Below are positions 1-63,554 of a DNA stretch of 64,000 nucleotides, in pieces (the stretch's first letter is position 1; each line of letters begins with the position of its first letter). The translations under genes and the position numbers were made by a program. The DNA is from Hydrogenovibrio sp. (GTDB lineage: Bacteria; Pseudomonadota; Gammaproteobacteria; Thiomicrospirales; Thiomicrospiraceae). The notes beneath the pieces are model-generated. The model was not told where the DNA came from and did no database searches. It worked only from the letters and a program-made list of their open reading frames with translations. Location: the NCBI GenBank assembly GCA_015484555.1, contig WFMZ01000065.1:1-64000 (forward strand), read 5' to 3'.

Positions 1-247
1 AACCAAAGGTTTCGAGCATACAGAACGATAACCTAGTGGAATTGGCAGGCTTGCCTGCGTAGGAAAATCAAGGCAAGCGCAGTGAGCGTGGCCAGCCACG
101 TGACACGGAGCTGAATGACAGGCTAGTGCGCAAGAAACCAAAGGTTTCGAGCATACAGAACGATAACCTAGTGGAATTGGCAGGCTTGCCTGCGTAGGAA
201 AATCAAGGCAAGCGCAGTGAGCGTGGCCAGCCACGTGACACGGAGCT
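1..247. repeat. 135-bp direct tandem repeat, two copies visible (second partial)
   Basis: Positions 1-112 and 136-247 appear identical by eye, so the period is 135 bp; copy 2 diverges after 247. Each unit holds short hairpins: GCAGGC-TT-GCCTGC (45-58), CGTGGC-CA-GCCACG (87-100) and GAAACC-AAA-GGTTTC (134-148, across the junction). An alternative pairing, GCTTGCCT (49-56) with AGGCAAGC (71-78), would compete with the first. CCTAGTGG (32-39 and 167-174) is matched in inverse by CCACTAGG at 283-290, after the array. No open reading frame was recognised. The array may continue to the left of the window, so the copy number is unknown. It lies just beyond the atp operon terminator. Confidence 0.9.
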
Positions 248-16474: not shown

Positions 16475-16771
16475 TTAGTCATACGCCTGTTGTCGGTGTT
16501 TAAAATCTACGATGGCCACAATCAATTTTTCATCTTCAACCAGGTAAAACAGTCTGTAATTTCCGATTCTATATCGGTAATAGCCTTCTAAATTATCTTT
16601 GAGTTTTTTGATATTAGGGCCGTAAAAAGGGTTCTCTCGTAGCAGAGGATAGACAAAAGTTTCTATTTTTACATACAACTTTTTATCCAGCTTCTTTTTT
16701 AATTTTTGAAATGTTTTTGTCTCAGCAATTTGATAGTTAGACAATATCGTAGTCGCCATTTTTAAAGTCAT
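16475..16771 (-). CDS. RelE/ParE-superfamily toxin of a type II toxin-antitoxin pair
   Basis: A 98-aa basic protein. The pattern NPFYGPNIKKLKDNLEGYYRYRIGNYRLFYLVEDEKLIVAIVDFKHR is typical of RelE/ParE-fold toxins, which cleave ribosome-bound mRNA or poison gyrase; the sequence does not say which. It overlaps the upstream antitoxin gene by 35 bp (or 23 bp if the start is the internal ATG at 16759), as expected for translational coupling. Confidence 0.85.
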   Translation of the reverse strand: MTLKMATTILSNYQIAETKTFQKLKKKLDKKLYVKIETFVYPLLRENPFYGPNIKKLKDNLEGYYRYRIGNYRLFYLVEDEKLIVAIVDFKHRQQAYD

Positions 16772-16973
16772 TTAACCCGTTCATCAGGTTTTGCACAAGA
16801 TCTTTGTCATCCAAAATTTCTTTCATTTCATCATTGTCTACAAATTGTGACGAGGTTAAGTATTGCATGGTGGCAAATTCAATGTAATTTGATAGATTTC
16901 TTTTTTGGCCATCTGCAGCTAGTTTAATCATCTTGTAGATAGCGTCATCCACTCGCATCGTTACCGTTTTCAT
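16737..16973 (-). CDS. Ribbon-helix-helix antitoxin partner of the RelE-like toxin
   Basis: A 78-aa protein. The N-terminal MKTVTMRVDDAIYKMIKLAA with KRNLSNYIEFA is a ribbon-helix-helix DNA-binding domain (about 1-45); the acidic C-terminal tail (NDEMKEILDDKDLVQN) would wrap the toxin. Such antitoxins repress their own operon. Upstream, ATTCAATTTTATTCAAA on the plus strand could hold the operator, but no clean palindrome was seen. Confidence 0.83.
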   Translation of the reverse strand: MKTVTMRVDDAIYKMIKLAADGQKRNLSNYIEFATMQYLTSSQFVDNDEMKEILDDKDLVQNLMNGLNDFKNGDYDIV

Positions 16974-17063
16974 GGTACTTCCTTTGAATAATTATGACAC
17001 CCATTGTATTCAATTTTATTCAAACGGTCAATAATAAAAATCGCCCTAGTGTCGCTTCACCTT

Positions 17064-17888
17064 TTATTGCCGTGCTAATCGAGCCAAATCAAACTCATCT
17101 TCAAAGTTTGAACGATAAGGGTTAATGTCTAAACCGCCACGGCGGACATAACGCGCATACACCGTTAACTTATCTGGCTTGCACCTTGCCATAATATCGC
17201 AGAACATTCGTTCGACACATTGCTCGTGAAACTCATTGTGGTTGCGGAAAGAGATAATGTACTTCAATAAAGCTTCATGGTCTATTTGCTTGCCTTCATA
17301 ACGAATCACCACCGACCCCCAGTCTGGTTGACCCGTCACCAAACAGTTAGACTTTAACAAGTTGCTATGAAGCGTTTCACTTACTTGATCTTCCCCTGCC
17401 GCTAACAAACTGGCATCAACTTGGTATTGACTTATTTCAATATCTAGCTCATCTAGCGATTCACCTGGCAAGGCGCCAATTTCGGTGACTTCATCTAAAC
17501 GACGAACTTCGGCATAAACATCGGCACCCGATACGGCTGATAAATCTTTTTCCCACAAGGCAATCACATCTTCTTCATTCTCAAAGCGAGTGCCATTAAA
17601 GGAATTTAAGTACAATTTAAACGATTTAGATTCCACCAAGTTAGGCGCATCGGCAGAAAAAGAGAATTCAACAATGCGTACCTGTGGCTTGCCCTTGGCA
17701 TTCAACCAAGATACTTCATAGGCGGTCCAAATATCTAGCCCTATAAAAGGTAGGTTAGCTAGTTTAATATTCAATTCATCTCGGTTTTCTTGGCGAGGAA
17801 TGGGAAACAGCAAGCTGGCATCATATTGGTCGGCATAAGCGGTAGATTGACCTAAATGGCTTTGTTCAGCGGTAGGATGTAAACTCAT
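17064..17888 (-). CDS. queF: NADPH-dependent 7-cyano-7-deazaguanine reductase QueF (bimodular)
   Basis: QueF (274 aa) reduces preQ0 to preQ1 in queuosine biosynthesis. It is the long bimodular type: the family motif [15 protein letters not shown] is at 86-100, and the catalytic Cys182 lies in [12 protein letters not shown] in the second T-fold module, followed by [13 protein letters not shown] (220-232). Monocistronic in context, apart from the YigZ-family gene upstream on the same strand. Confidence 0.96.
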
Positions 17889-58235: not shown

Positions 58236-58258
58236 ATCATGTACTTAAAAGGCAATTT

Positions 58259-58879
58259 ATGAAAAATCTAATTTGGCTCTTGGCTATTACCTTTTCAATA
58301 GCATCATTTGGCGTCAAAGCCAATGATTCTTTTGAGTATGTAGAAGGCATTCATTACAAAAAAACTAATGAAATTGTTTCAATTGCACCTTATAAAAAAC
58401 AAGTCACCGAAGTCTTTTTTTATGGCTGTCCTCACTGCTATCACTTAGAGCCTAGCTTACATGCTTGGCTAAAAACTAAACCTAAAGATGTTCATTTTGA
58501 ACGCATGCCTGCTGTTCTAAATAACCCCAACTGGATTTTTATGGCACGTGTTTATTACACAGCTAAAGCATTGGGTATTGAAGAACGTTTTCACAAAGCT
58601 TATTTTGATGCTATTCAACGGGATGGAAGAGCTATTTTTGATTTACCCGCGTTGAAAAAATTTGTGGCTCCTATGGGGATTAATGGCAAACAATATGAAA
58701 ATATGTTTAAAAGCTTTCAAGTTGATGAAATGGTAAAAAAAGCCAGAGTTAAAACAGAAAAATATGGTATTGAAGGCGTACCAGCTATCATTATTAACGG
58801 TAAATATCTAACCGATGTGGGAATGGCAACCAGCCGAAATAAAATGTGGAAGTTAGTAGACACCTTAGTCCAGAAGTAA
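58259..58879 (+). CDS. dsbA: Periplasmic thiol:disulfide oxidoreductase DsbA-type
   Basis: A 206-aa protein with a signal peptide (about 1-21, ending GVKA) and a thioredoxin fold with the active site CPHC at 57-60 (VTEVFFYGCPHC) and the cis-proline loop GVPAIIINGKY. The CPHC sequence and helical insert fit DsbA. It lies in the cytochrome c maturation operon, where thiol redox must be controlled before haem attachment. The start at 58259 has AAGG upstream. Confidence 0.92.
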   Translation: MKNLIWLLAITFSIASFGVKANDSFEYVEGIHYKKTNEIVSIAPYKKQVTEVFFYGCPHCYHLEPSLHAWLKTKPKDVHFERMPAVLNNPNWIFMARVYYTAKALGIEERFHKAYFDAIQRDGRAIFDLPALKKFVAPMGINGKQYENMFKSFQVDEMVKKARVKTEKYGIEGVPAIIINGKYLTDVGMATSRNKMWKLVDTLVQK

Positions 58880-58907
58880 GCTCTAAGTTTAAATATTGTA
58901 CGAATTT

Positions 58908-58932
58908 AACCCATTTTTTAGTGGGTTTTTTA
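58908..58932 (+). terminator. Rho-independent terminator after dsbA
   Basis: AACCCA (58908-58913), loop of about 8 nt, TGGGTT (58922-58927), then T residues. It ends the resB-ccsA-dsbA transcript. Confidence 0.85.
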
Positions 58933-58962
58933 TTCTTTATTGTATAAGCAACATCCTACTGA

Positions 58963-58980
58963 CCACCCCTGGTGATTATT
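58963..58980. repeat. Dispersed repeat, diverged single arm (locus h)
   Basis: CCACCCCTGGTGATTATT differs from the reverse core at two positions. AAGGTTAAAA follows about 19 bp later (58999 onward), recalling the usual AAGGTT flank. It lies in the gap between the dsbA terminator and the cyd promoter region. Confidence 0.78.
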
Positions 58981-59081
58981 AGCTTTTCGATAGTTTTTAA
59001 GGTTAAAATCTTTATAAAATATAGTAATCTAAGCTATTGAAATAAAACACGTTATTTCTAAATCTATAGGACACTACACCT

Positions 59082-59159
59082 CTATTCGACCACATAGTAC
59101 GAATAGGCTTTTAACCAAAACATAAAAGTATTGACATTAAATAACTTTCATGTTAAAAG
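59082..59159 (+). promoter_or_regulatory. Putative promoter and upstream dyad of the bd-oxidase operon
   Basis: TTGACA (59131-59136) with a 17-bp spacer to TAAAAG (59154-59159) is a plausible sigma-70 promoter. Upstream, CTATTCG (59082-59088) and CGAATAG (59100-59106) form a 7-bp dyad with an 11-bp gap, placed like an operator or activator site about 25 bp before the -35. No regulator is identified; no clear FNR (TTGAT-N4-ATCAA) site was seen. Confidence 0.5.
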
Positions 59160-59194
59160 TTATTAGTAATCCAATTTTACAAAGCAAAAAATAA

Positions 59195-59240
59195 CAACTT
59201 CAACTTCAACTTCAACTTCAACTTCAACTTCAACTTCAAC
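59195..59240. repeat. CAACTT hexanucleotide microsatellite
   Basis: Seven perfect CAACTT units (59195-59236) followed by CAAC. It occupies the leader between the candidate promoter and the ribosome binding site (GTAGGAAG, 59247-59254) of the cydA-like gene. Copy number is prone to change by replication slippage. Confidence 0.95.
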
Positions 59241-59259
59241 AATATTGTAGGAAGACACA

Positions 59260-60618
59260 ATGGATGACTCGATTATTTTGCTAGATCGATTGCACTTTGC
59301 ATTCAATATCATTTTTCATTATTTATTTCCCCAGTTAACCATGGGTTTAGCTTTTATTATTGTGGTATTTAAAAGTATCGCACTTTATACAAAAAATGAA
59401 GCATATAACAGAGCTGTCCGTTTTTTAATTAAATTATTTGCAATCAATTTTATTTTTGGTGTGGTAACAGGTATACCAATGGAATTTTTGTTTGGTACTA
59501 ACTGGGCGGAGTTTTCAAGAAGAACTGGAGGTGTTATTGGTAATACGCTTGCAATGGAAGGGCTATTTGCATTTCTACTAGAGTCTGCATTTCTCGGGCT
59601 ATTATTATTTGGAGAAAAGCGTTTGACTCCAATTGTTCATTGGTTTTCTGCACTGATGGTCTTTATTGGGACATGGTTATCAGGATTCTTTATTTTGGCA
59701 ACTAATGCCTGGATGCAACATCCTGTCGCTTATTCCATTGACAGTGCAGGGCTATTTTCAGTAACAAGCTTGCCTGAAATGTTAACTAATCCCTGGTTGT
59801 TTTGGCAGTATTTACACAATATGAATGCAACGTTGATTACAGCTAGCTTTGTAGTTGCATCCATTGGTGCTTTTTATCTCCTATCCAATAAACACACTGA
59901 ATCAGCTCGCCTTTATGTAAGAACTGCTGTCATCATTGCCGCTATAGCAACCGTTCTTCAAATATTTCCATTCGGTGATGGAGAGGCTAGACAAGTCTTT
60001 AAACACCAACCAACTAAAGCTGCTGCAATGGAAGGAATTTTTCACACTCAAAAAGGCGTACCTTTTGTCTTATTTGGACAGCCGAATATGGATACTCTAA
60101 AACTTGATAATCCAATCGTCATTCCATATGCAGACAGTTTGATGGTTACCGGAACAATGGATGGTGAAATAAAAGGCTTAAATTCATTTCCAAAAGAAGA
60201 CTGGCCTGATTCTGTACCACTTGTTTTTTATGCCTTCCATGTCATGGTCATTCTAGGATCCTTGTTTGCTCTCATTATGTTAACGGCACTTTTCTTATTA
60301 TGGCGAAAAAAGCTTTTTCCATCGCGTTGGATGCTATGGATACTAATGTTAAGTGCACCATTGCCATATCTTGCAACAATTTCGGGCTGGATAACCACAG
60401 AAGCAGGACGACAACCATGGCTAGTTTATGGATTGATGCGGACAGTAGAAGGAGCTTCACCTCATGTTAGTTCGGGTAATGTATTATTCACCTTATTGGG
60501 CTTTACTTTAATCTACCTATTTATGGGAATGCTTTTCGTCACTTTAGTTATTCGAGTAATTACTATTGGACCACCTCATAAATCTGAATCTATTGAGATT
60601 ACACAAGGGAGTAAATAG
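59260..60618 (+). CDS. cydA: Cytochrome bd-type quinol oxidase subunit I (short Q-loop, CioA/CydA)
   Basis: Haem-bearing subunit (452 aa) of a bd-family oxidase that oxidises quinol and reduces oxygen without pumping protons. Ligand His20 (DRLHFAFNIIFHYLF), the acidic pair in AMEGLFAFLLESAFLG, the His of YLHNMNAT, the Q-loop start KHQPTKAAAMEG and GRQPWLVYGLMRT are visible. The Q-loop is short compared with E. coli CydA (about 522 aa), so it resembles the CIO/short-loop type. It has an unusual microsatellite leader and is followed by subunit II 2 bp later. Confidence 0.93.
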   Translation: MDDSIILLDRLHFAFNIIFHYLFPQLTMGLAFIIVVFKSIALYTKNEAYNRAVRFLIKLFAINFIFGVVTGIPMEFLFGTNWAEFSRRTGGVIGNTLAMEGLFAFLLESAFLGLLLFGEKRLTPIVHWFSALMVFIGTWLSGFFILATNAWMQHPVAYSIDSAGLFSVTSLPEMLTNPWLFWQYLHNMNATLITASFVVASIGAFYLLSNKHTESARLYVRTAVIIAAIATVLQIFPFGDGEARQVFKHQPTKAAAMEGIFHTQKGVPFVLFGQPNMDTLKLDNPIVIPYADSLMVTGTMDGEIKGLNSFPKEDWPDSVPLVFYAFHVMVILGSLFALIMLTALFLLWRKKLFPSRWMLWILMLSAPLPYLATISGWITTEAGRQPWLVYGLMRTVEGASPHVSSGNVLFTLLGFTLIYLFMGMLFVTLVIRVITIGPPHKSESIEITQGSK

Positions 60619-60620
60619 TA

Positions 60621-61667
60621 ATGGAAGCATTTTGGTTTATTGTTTTAGGAGTATTACTAACGCTATTTATAGTGCTTGATGGTTTTGATTTTGGCACGGG
60701 CATTATTTATCACTTTATTGCCAAAACTAACGATGAACGAAGAGCTGTTCTAAATGCTATCGGTCCAATATGGGATGGTAACGAAGTTTGGCTAATTATT
60801 GCTGGTGGTGCTTTATTTTTTGCTTTTCCTATCGCATATGCATCTATTTTTAGTGGCTATTATCTGGCACTAATATTTTTGTTGTGGCTGCTCATATTTC
60901 GTGGTCTATCAATGGAGCTACGTTCTCAAATTTCAAACCCACTTTGGCATACTTTTTGGGATGCTATGCTGACTATTGGCAGTGTCTCTATTGCGTTACT
61001 GTTAGGCGTCGCGCTGGGTAATGTTCTACGGGGTGCTCCATTAGATGCGGATGGTTTCTTTTTCTTACCTTTATGGACAGATTTTAGAACAGGAGTTTAC
61101 CCAGGAATTTTAGATTGGTTTACTGTATTAATTGGCGTCTTTAGTGTGGTTCTTTTAGCCGTTCATGGTGCTAATTTTATTGCTTTAAAAACCGTTGGCG
61201 TAATACAGGATAGAGCACGAAAAATTGCTCGTAAAGGAACCTTGATAGTTATTTTATTTGCACTATTTCTACCTGTTGCAAGTTATGTGGCGCAGCCTAT
61301 GTTATTAGAAAATTATAAGCTGTATTGGATTGGTATATTACTTCCTATACTGTCTTTTTTTACACTACTAGGGTTGTTTATCACACGTCGTAAAGATAAT
61401 GATTTATATGCATTTTTATCTTCTGCCTTTTTAATTGTACTACTAATGCTTAGTGTTGCATTTTCAGTATTCCCTAATATGATCATTGCAACAACTAATC
61501 CATCTTATAGCTTAACTATCTATAACACGGCAACATCAGAATATGCTTTGCGTACTGGCCTGATTTGGTATTCTGTTGGTGCCTTTCTTGCACTTTGTTA
61601 TACCCTTTTTATGTATCGATCATTTAAAGGAAAAGTCTCTCTACCTAAAGAGGGTGAGGGTTATTAA
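60621..61667 (+). CDS. cydB: Cytochrome bd-type quinol oxidase subunit II
   Basis: Subunit II (348 aa), about eight to nine membrane helices. The N terminus MEAFWFIVLGVLLTLFIVLDGFDFGTGI with GPIWDGNEVWLIIAGGALFFAFP is the signature of CydB/CioB. It pairs with subunit I directly upstream. No CydX-like short helix gene or cydDC was found in the window. Confidence 0.94.
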   Translation: MEAFWFIVLGVLLTLFIVLDGFDFGTGIIYHFIAKTNDERRAVLNAIGPIWDGNEVWLIIAGGALFFAFPIAYASIFSGYYLALIFLLWLLIFRGLSMELRSQISNPLWHTFWDAMLTIGSVSIALLLGVALGNVLRGAPLDADGFFFLPLWTDFRTGVYPGILDWFTVLIGVFSVVLLAVHGANFIALKTVGVIQDRARKIARKGTLIVILFALFLPVASYVAQPMLLENYKLYWIGILLPILSFFTLLGLFITRRKDNDLYAFLSSAFLIVLLMLSVAFSVFPNMIIATTNPSYSLTIYNTATSEYALRTGLIWYSVGAFLALCYTLFMYRSFKGKVSLPKEGEGY

Positions 61668-61717
61668 CTAGTTAATAATACAAGTTATTAACATCATAAA
61701 AATGATAGGAGTTTATC

Positions 61718-63001
61718 ATGAAGAAACCACACGTTATTGTTTTGGGCGGTAATTTTGCCGGATTGGGTAGTGCTCAAAAAATACGAGAATATGCTAAAGA
61801 TAGCGTTGATATCACGGTTATTGATCGTAAAGACTACTTGCTTTATGTACCCAATATTCCTGTAGAGGTGTTTGACAATAAAGACCCTCAAGAATCATTA
61901 AGAATGGAGTTACCCTCAACCTTAAAACATGATGATATTAACTTTATACAGGCTGAAATTCAGTCTGTAGATATTGAAAAAAAACACATCAACTTTATAC
62001 CATCTGAGCGACCAGGATCGGAAACCCAAAAGATTAGTTATGATTATATTGTCATTGCTGTTGGGTGTCGACTAGCCTATGACCGAATTCCAGGATTTGC
62101 TGAATTTGGTGATACTGTTTCCGACTTTTATCATGGTAATAAACTACGTAAAAAATTACATGACGGTACATATAAAGGTGGTCCTGTTGTTATTGGGTCC
62201 GCTGTGTTTCATCAAGGTGATGGTGCAGAAGGATTAGAACCTTATCCAGGAGGTTCTATTCCAAACGCTTTAGCTGCATGTGAAGGACCAACGGTTGAAG
62301 TATCGCTTGCAATGGCCTCATGGTTACAAAAGCATAAAATGGGCAGCGCTAAAAATATCAGTATCACGACACCAGCTAATATAGTCGCTGAAGACGCTGG
62401 TGAAAAAGTTGTAGGGGAGTTACTTGAAGCAGCTGGAAATATGGGCTTTAACTATGTCAATAATTGTGGAGATATTGTTGAACTGACAAAAGACGGTATT
62501 AAGTTTGAAAATGGACAATATTTAGAAGCTGAATTAAAAATTATTTTACCTGATTGGGTTCCTCATAATTTTTTGAAAGGATTACCTATCACAGATAATC
62601 AAGGTTTTGTAATTACAGATTTATTAATGCGTAACCCAAAGTATCCTGAAGTTTTCGCCGCGGGAGATTGTGCTGCTGTCACTATGCCAAAATTAGGTGC
62701 TATTGGCCATCAACAATGTGAGATTGTAGGTTTACAAATTGCGCTGGATATGAAGGTTATAACTGAAGAAAAAGCAAATAAACCTTTAAAACCTGTTGTA
62801 TTTTGTATTGGTGATATGGGCGGTGGTAAGGCATTCTATATCCGATCTGACTCCTGGTTCGGTGGTGATACACAAGTTTTAAAAATGGGGAAAATTCCAT
62901 ATATGCTAAAAATGCAGTATAAGACATTATTTATGAACACTAAGGGTAAAACACCTCCTTGGGGAAATGAAATGGCTGAATTTTTAGCTGAAAAGTTATA
63001 A
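61718..63001 (+). CDS. Sulfide:quinone oxidoreductase-like FAD enzyme
   Basis: Flavoprotein (427 aa). The N-terminal FAD fold HVIVLGGNFAGLGSAQKIRE is followed by YDYIVIAVGCRLAYDRIPG and EVFAAGDCAAVTMPKLGAIGHQQ. Cys188 (AACEGPTVEVSLA) and Cys363 (VFCIGDMGGGKAFY) sit where the redox pair of sulfide:quinone oxidoreductases lies; Cys117 is a third candidate. The sequence is rather divergent from type I Sqr, so a related sulfur or NADH dehydrogenase cannot be excluded. Placed 50 bp after the bd oxidase, which would accept electrons from the quinol it makes. Confidence 0.8.
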   Translation: MKKPHVIVLGGNFAGLGSAQKIREYAKDSVDITVIDRKDYLLYVPNIPVEVFDNKDPQESLRMELPSTLKHDDINFIQAEIQSVDIEKKHINFIPSERPGSETQKISYDYIVIAVGCRLAYDRIPGFAEFGDTVSDFYHGNKLRKKLHDGTYKGGPVVIGSAVFHQGDGAEGLEPYPGGSIPNALAACEGPTVEVSLAMASWLQKHKMGSAKNISITTPANIVAEDAGEKVVGELLEAAGNMGFNYVNNCGDIVELTKDGIKFENGQYLEAELKIILPDWVPHNFLKGLPITDNQGFVITDLLMRNPKYPEVFAAGDCAAVTMPKLGAIGHQQCEIVGLQIALDMKVITEEKANKPLKPVVFCIGDMGGGKAFYIRSDSWFGGDTQVLKMGKIPYMLKMQYKTLFMNTKGKTPPWGNEMAEFLAEKL

Positions 63002-63093
63002 TATTAAAGCTCATTTTAAAAAATAAAAACTTTACAAATTAAAATATTAAAGTAAAGTCATTTCTTACTATCAACTATATAAAGGGAAAAAAC

Positions 63094-63282
63094 ATGCCTA
63101 ATATGCAAGAAATTGAGATTAGTCGTTATCACAAACGAATTGTTAAAGATGTAAATCATTTAATTAAAAGATACCGTGAAATTATGGCATGGGATATCCC
63201 TGAAAATGACTCCACTGAGGCAGATAGATTAATTTTTAAGGCGGTTCATGAAGCGCTTAGTGATATTGAAAATAAAAAGTGA
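63094..63282 (+). CDS. Small charged protein of unknown function
   Basis: A 62-aa helical, charged protein (MPNMQEIEISRYHKRIVKDV, then NHLIKRYREIMAWDIPENDS...). No signal peptide, membrane segment or cysteines. A good ribosome binding site (AAAGGGAAAAAAC) precedes the start. It is 92 bp after the Sqr-like gene and probably in the same transcript. I do not recognise a family. Confidence 0.68.
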   Translation: MPNMQEIEISRYHKRIVKDVNHLIKRYREIMAWDIPENDSTEADRLIFKAVHEALSDIENKK

Positions 63283-63344
63283 GTTAAAAATACTCTATTT
63301 TAAATACATTTATCCTAAAATTTTTTTATGTCCTGCTCGTTATA

Positions 63345-63370
63345 CACCGCTGTTTTTTTAAGCAGCGGTG
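63345..63370. other. GC-rich stem-loop downstream of the sulfide/oxidase cluster
   Basis: CACCGCTG (63345-63352) pairs with CAGCGGTG (63363-63370) over a 10-nt loop TTTTTTTAAG. A short T-rich stretch follows but no clear poly-T, so it may terminate the upstream transcript inefficiently or stabilise its 3' end. Confidence 0.6.
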
Positions 63371-63554
63371 GCCCTTTCTTCCAAAACTATATGCTATTTA
63401 CCTATAACCATTAACTTCAGATTTTATGTTCTAAATACTTCCTTAAGCGATTATTGAGCTTCTTAACAAGTGTGGACACCCCTGTCCTTTAAACGCTTAG
63501 TTTAATACTTTATAAAATTTGTTTAAATTTAAAAACCTAGTAAACTAGTAGGAT

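Follow-up and report, generated by a model that had tools for sequence, protein, structure and literature searches.

Why does a gene for a respiratory oxidase subunit carry a perfect hexanucleotide repeat between its putative promoter and its ribosome binding site, and does the number of repeat units matter? The question is raised by a cydA leader in the window, the 64,000-nt stretch of Hydrogenovibrio sp. DNA that was analysed. Bet-hedging by repeats has mostly been described for the surface structures of pathogens adapted to a host. A unit number that varied at this locus, with consequences for the cell, would carry it into the core respiration of an environmental bacterium and into a gene cassette whose adjustment to a new host is still under way.

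A perfect microsatellite in the leader of cydA

TRF reported (CAACTT)7.7 at 59195-59240 on the plus strand (period 6, 100% matches) with a score of 92, the highest among the short-period arrays of the window. Seven complete CAACTT units (59195-59236) are followed by CAAC, then by AATATTGT, the Shine-Dalgarno sequence AGGAAG and the cydA ATG at 59260; 19 nt separate the array end from the start codon. The array is real, perfect and non-coding, which bears out the microsatellite that an earlier note had placed in the cydA leader. Of the span given there, 59195-59254, the start is correct and the end is not, since 59254 takes in the ribosome binding site AGGAAG (~59249-59254). A coding repeat was ruled out because no ORF of at least 60 aa runs over the array; a 14-codon ATG frame from 59150 was also rejected, as it stops just 5' of the array and is without a Shine-Dalgarno sequence. 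The features of the leader and its upstream neighbour are as follows.

58256..58879, plus strand: dsbA-like thiol:disulfide interchange protein (PF01323, E 1e-18)
58908..58927, plus strand: intrinsic-terminator-like hairpin 3' of dsbA (8 pairs, T-rich tail, 0.3 expected)
59131..59159, plus strand: candidate cydA sigma-70-type promoter, TTGACA-17-TAAAAG with a TG extension (consensus match only)
59140..59164, no strand assigned: perfect 9-bp inverted repeat, AATAACTTT-N7-AAAGTTATT, over the spacer and -10 element (repeat search)
59185..59246, plus strand: G-free run of 62 nt, C-rich, with UC every 6 nt across the array (composition scan)
59195..59240, plus strand: microsatellite (CAACTT)7.7, perfect, in the predicted 5' UTR (TRF, genome survey)
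59249..59254, plus strand: Shine-Dalgarno AGGAAG of cydA (sequence)

No longer G-free run occurs on either strand of the window, and C minus G over 78 nt at the leader lies in the top 0.6% of the plus strand. A hexamer survey of 1,854,548 of the 1,919,990 genome bases (97%; three short contigs, ~7.4 kb, read N) gave four arrays of at least 4 copies (12.8, 7.7, 5.0 and 4.0), among which the CAACTT array is the second longest; no second CAACTT array occurs elsewhere in the genome. In three Markov-1 control sequences of genome size the hexamer maximum was 3.0 copies, so an array of 7.7 copies is far from random. With 7.7 perfect units the repeat is also long enough for slippage.

Because the terminator-like hairpin closes off dsbA, cydA needs a promoter of its own. 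The candidate scored 11.2 compared with 8.1 ± 1.3 in Markov controls, using a weight matrix modelled on E. coli promoters, and is the best match in the 380-nt gap between dsbA and cydA. A simple consensus scan missed it because its -10 element is without the final T. The transcript is predicted to start at ~59166. The only good promoter match lies 5' of the array, which makes it most likely that the array is transcribed, all of it as part of the cydA 5' UTR. The order of promoter, array, ribosome binding site and cydA, with dsbA ended by a terminator-like hairpin, agrees with the anatomy proposed in the note. A minus-strand promoter using the TTGAAG of the array was rejected, the match being at chance level, and a known RNA element in the leader was likewise rejected, the Rfam matches being chance-like and far below gathering scores.

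A perfect 9-bp inverted repeat is found in 8% of random sequences, and the dyad at 59140-59164 may be the operator of a regulator, either acquired or local. No second copy was found at up to 2 mismatches in the surveyed genome; a regulon sharing the dyad was rejected on this ground.

A horizontally acquired cydA-cydB-SQR cassette

The genes downstream of the array, and the DNA that they share with a distant copy, are listed below.

59229..63003, plus strand: DNA in common with the cassette of L007, 88-91% identical (blastn; left edge inside the array)
59260..60618, plus strand: cydA, cytochrome bd oxidase subunit I, short form, 452 aa (PF01654, E 4e-145)
60621..61667, plus strand: cydB, cytochrome bd oxidase subunit II (PF02322; TIGR00203 above cut-off)
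61718..63001, plus strand: sulfide:quinone-reductase (SQR)-like FAD oxidoreductase (PF07992)

The SQR-like protein matches the NCBIfam type III SQR family below the family cut-off only. The dsbA gene marks the host side of the cassette, and the order resB-ccsB-dsbA is conserved across the loci of the genus. In 11 congeners (12 loci) dsbA is directly followed by an acetolactate-synthase-like gene; the host has this gene at contig position 65085, with cydAB, SQR, a 62-aa ORF and selO in between. The block cydAB-SQR-ORF62-selO (window 58880-63554) thus sits between genes that are adjacent in the 11 congeners. For ORF62 (63094-63282), neither Pfam nor NCBIfam nor the other genomes of the genus gave a match.

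Of the 63 genomes of the order that were searched, none but the host has a CydA of like similarity, and relatives within the family reach 40% identity at most. Among 398 sampled genomes of the phylum no other SQR of like similarity was found. The nearest copy of the cassette is in L007, a metagenome-assembled genome named Alteromonadaceae, between unrelated flanks; the three proteins are 90, 89 and 94% identical and the DNA 88-91%. No further copies came from viral contigs (no CydA) or from plasmids (best 51% identity). A scan of viral contigs for the array gave 31 matches. The cassette cydA-cydB-SQR is horizontally acquired, since it is absent from this site in 11 congeners and has an 88-91% DNA match in an unrelated context.

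Origin of the array

The L007 leader contains a single unit compared with 7.7 here, and the last ~30 nt of the leader are otherwise common to both. The leader of the relative is TAACTTTAATAATATT, that of the host CAACTT repeated and then CAACAATATT; where L007 reads TTTTAACTTTAATAATATTTTAAGGAAAAGGAATG, the host reads ...CAACTTCAACAATATTGTAGGAAGACACAATG. Aligned in register, the two leaders agree at 19 of 29 nt, a match reached by none of 20,000 shuffles; the best of 47 other window leaders gave 17. Nothing recognisable is common to host and L007 5' of the shared leader. The difference between one unit and 7.7 points to growth of the tract and, as homology stops within the last array units, to a lineage-specific expansion at the left edge of the cassette. 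In the simplest reading of the alignment, this growth took place in the host lineage. The direction (expansion here as opposed to loss in L007) rests on parsimony because there is one relative with alignable leader DNA; it is helped by the absence of arrays from other cydA leaders: arrays of 3 or more copies that span at least 16 nt were found in none of the 78 testable ones from other genomes.

The single unit of L007 is followed by the near-copy TAATAA, for which the host has CAACAA, and unit and near-copy together make a natural seed for slippage. We suggest that an ancestral YAACTT-YAAYAA near-duplicate just 5' of the ribosome binding site seeded slippage and that growth followed the separation from the nearest known relative. 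It would have taken place where the cassette abuts unrelated DNA of the host side, which carries the promoter. Slippage variation of the CAACTT number is plausible, and such changes in array length probably continue, at a low rate. Loss of mismatch repair as a cause was ruled out, as mutS and mutL are both found in the genome with scores above cut-off. The acquired status of the cassette and the relative with one unit are new facts about this locus.

Predicted effect of unit number

In the folding model the CUUC of each unit can pair with the GAAG of the Shine-Dalgarno sequence. Opening the latter costs 0.6-0.7 kcal/mol at 0-1 units, 1.5 at 2 and 3.1 at 3, and 2.6-3.5 kcal/mol from there to 15 units. 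Around 7 units, a one-unit step shifts the cost by ~0.1 kcal/mol. Varying the coding length (three values) and the start site (three positions) left the result standing. Growth from 1 to at least 3 units may therefore have somewhat reduced the accessibility of the ribosome binding site. Shuffled 42-nt arrays gave an opening cost of 4.7 ± 1.8 kcal/mol, above that of the real array, and because they close the Shine-Dalgarno sequence more, the CAACTT unit is not tuned to hide it. Tuning through such pairing was rejected on this ground and because the effect saturates at 3 units. Taken whole, the leader is no more stably folded than its shuffles (z -0.08).

Since the opening cost is nearly flat in unit number, translation tuning by simple secondary structure is unsupported at the present length. 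The interpretation in the earlier note is partly supported: the tract has expanded (1 versus 7.7 units), but the predicted accessibility of the ribosome binding site, which hardly changes between 3 and 15 units, lends no support to tuning by slippage. As the array is non-coding, changes in 6-nt steps, is G-free and lies outside the promoter elements, a single step would be expected to have a small, graded effect on expression. Folding does not capture transcript-level effects of leader repeats such as those of hmw1A. What is striking is the 62-nt stretch lacking G, with its UC at 6-nt intervals; it could help Rho to load or S1 to bind.

Comparison with known leader repeats

Repeats that tune expression from transcribed leaders are already known (hmw1A, uspA2). 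The hmw1A and hmw2A genes of non-typeable Haemophilus influenzae carry (ATCTTTC)n, likewise a perfect G-free tandem repeat in the 5' UTR and 5' of the ribosome binding site; the hmw1A heptamers lie within the leader of the transcript from P2, the main promoter there, and more units give less mRNA (PMC8262952). These repeats differ from CAACTT in that variation and an mRNA effect are proven and the product is an adhesin of a host-adapted pathogen; they are also heptamers, with 13-24 units in the constructs described, and touch the -10 box (PMC8262952). The AGAT tracts of uspA2 in Moraxella catarrhalis are also leader repeats that tune expression (PMC7302503; PMC4679880). In the same species gor, a metabolic redox gene (glutathione disulfide reductase), has a variable (GACTGTTT)n 25 bp 5' of its start codon; the likeness of uspA2 (AGAT)n and gor to the present locus is in having upstream repeats, and they differ in unit length and in that strain-to-strain variation in number has been shown (PMC7302503). 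Candidatus Maribeggiatoa and relatives, which are sulfur-oxidising bacteria, have TAACTGA, likewise short direct repeats just 5' of start codons; these are heptamers over ~170 loci that mostly replace the Shine-Dalgarno sequence, whereas CAACTT is a single-locus hexamer with a normal one (PMC4679880). With one array in the genome and a normal AGGAAG, the locus does not belong to a leader repeat network of the TAACTGA type.

The arrangement had been called unusual for a respiratory oxidase. Within the limited library searched no paper was found on such a repeat before cydA, which agrees with the claim; metabolic genes with upstream repeats do occur, gor of M. catarrhalis being one (PMC7302503).

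Discussion

As judged from sequence, the array would fit the anatomy of a contingency locus: it lies between the best promoter match and the Shine-Dalgarno sequence of a transcript with a predicted start, though the predicted folding at the ribosome binding site is nearly flat in unit number. Within-species variation and an effect on expression are the defining features of such loci. If it were one, unit number would vary between cells and set the mRNA or protein level of cydAB-SQR, giving variants pre-adapted to differing oxygen or sulfide levels. We regard this reading as rather unlikely. The position of the array is like that of the 5'-UTR repeats of hmw1A (PMC8262952) and uspA2 (PMC7302503, PMC4679880), and variants in oxidase level could matter because bd oxidases keep respiration going in sulfide (PMC8657789). 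At the transcript level, a growing C-rich, G-free leader may load Rho or change mRNA stability, with which the exceptional length of the G-free run and the excess of C over G are consistent. Against this, folding in silico gives no steep dependence of the ribosome binding site on unit number, mutS and mutL are in the genome, a hexamer is incapable of frame switching, and the Rho route is one that we infer, no paper having been found that joins Rho and such repeats. It is quite improbable, in our judgement, that the locus is an acquired sulfide-tolerant oxidase cassette with a slippage tuner, its terminal oxidase level bet-hedged by the CAACTT number; if true, an environmental bacterium, probably a sulfur oxidiser, would have a contingency locus for respiration.

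The lack of structure in the G-free leader could itself be what counts, the number of units being irrelevant, if the leader were a fixed enhancer of translation or a standby site for ribosomes that aids 30S or S1 binding. The 62-nt run and the folding score close to that of shuffles fit this idea, as do S1 proposals for the TAACTGA leader repeats of large sulfur bacteria (PMC4679880), but units added to the ancestral single one reduce the predicted accessibility of the Shine-Dalgarno sequence, and cydA has the canonical Shine-Dalgarno that most TAACTGA leaders are without; we give it little credence. The regular repetition of the array between the dyad and the ribosome binding site could reflect successive binding sites for a regulator that recognises DNA or RNA. 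Its 6-nt period is out of step with the DNA helical repeat, one array per genome means no regulon, and the array is absent from the L007 relative, all of which makes this very improbable. The genome is a 73-contig draft, and short-read assembly might have produced the array or its unit number; since 46 bp is less than an ordinary read length and both flanks are unique, at most the exact unit number would be the consensus of a mixture, and an artefact is hardly credible. On balance we favour a young, slippage-generated 5'-UTR microsatellite of an acquired cassette, with a weak graded effect at best, and hold this with modest confidence; an uninterrupted perfect array could also be kept by selection. 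Should unit number prove immaterial, the locus would be a clean case of microsatellite birth from a near-duplicate hexamer at the edge of transferred DNA.

Other repeats in the genome

The three other hexamer arrays of the survey are listed below; gene names at these arrays come from translations read by eye, not from family searches.

L152:13544-13620 (G000:C8): AACAAT x12.8, a poly-Asn stretch in a Wzz-like coding sequence (translation)
TGCTTT x5, in a VWA/TPR-like coding sequence (translation)
AGTAGA x4, the fourth hexamer array of the surveyed genome

The AACAAT array is the longest microsatellite of the surveyed genome, and in-frame changes in its length could alter the poly-Asn part of the Wzz-like chain-length protein. 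As this longer hexamer array lies within a wzz-like coding sequence, arrays arise outside leaders too, and the genome tolerates hexamer growth elsewhere. A heptamer array, GCAAAAA x5.3 at L199:1908-1944 (G000:C53), directly follows an ATG with GAGGG upstream, in a 17-codon frame; because a heptamer shifts the frame, it is a better candidate for an on-off switch than the CAACTT hexamer. The nonamer array TTCATTTGA x4.8 (L250:16481-16523, G000:C30) is apparently intergenic and adjoins a minus-strand ORF at 16546-17070. At the contig start, window positions 1-247 hold a perfect 135-bp direct repeat in 1.8 copies, where the assembly probably ended within a repeat.
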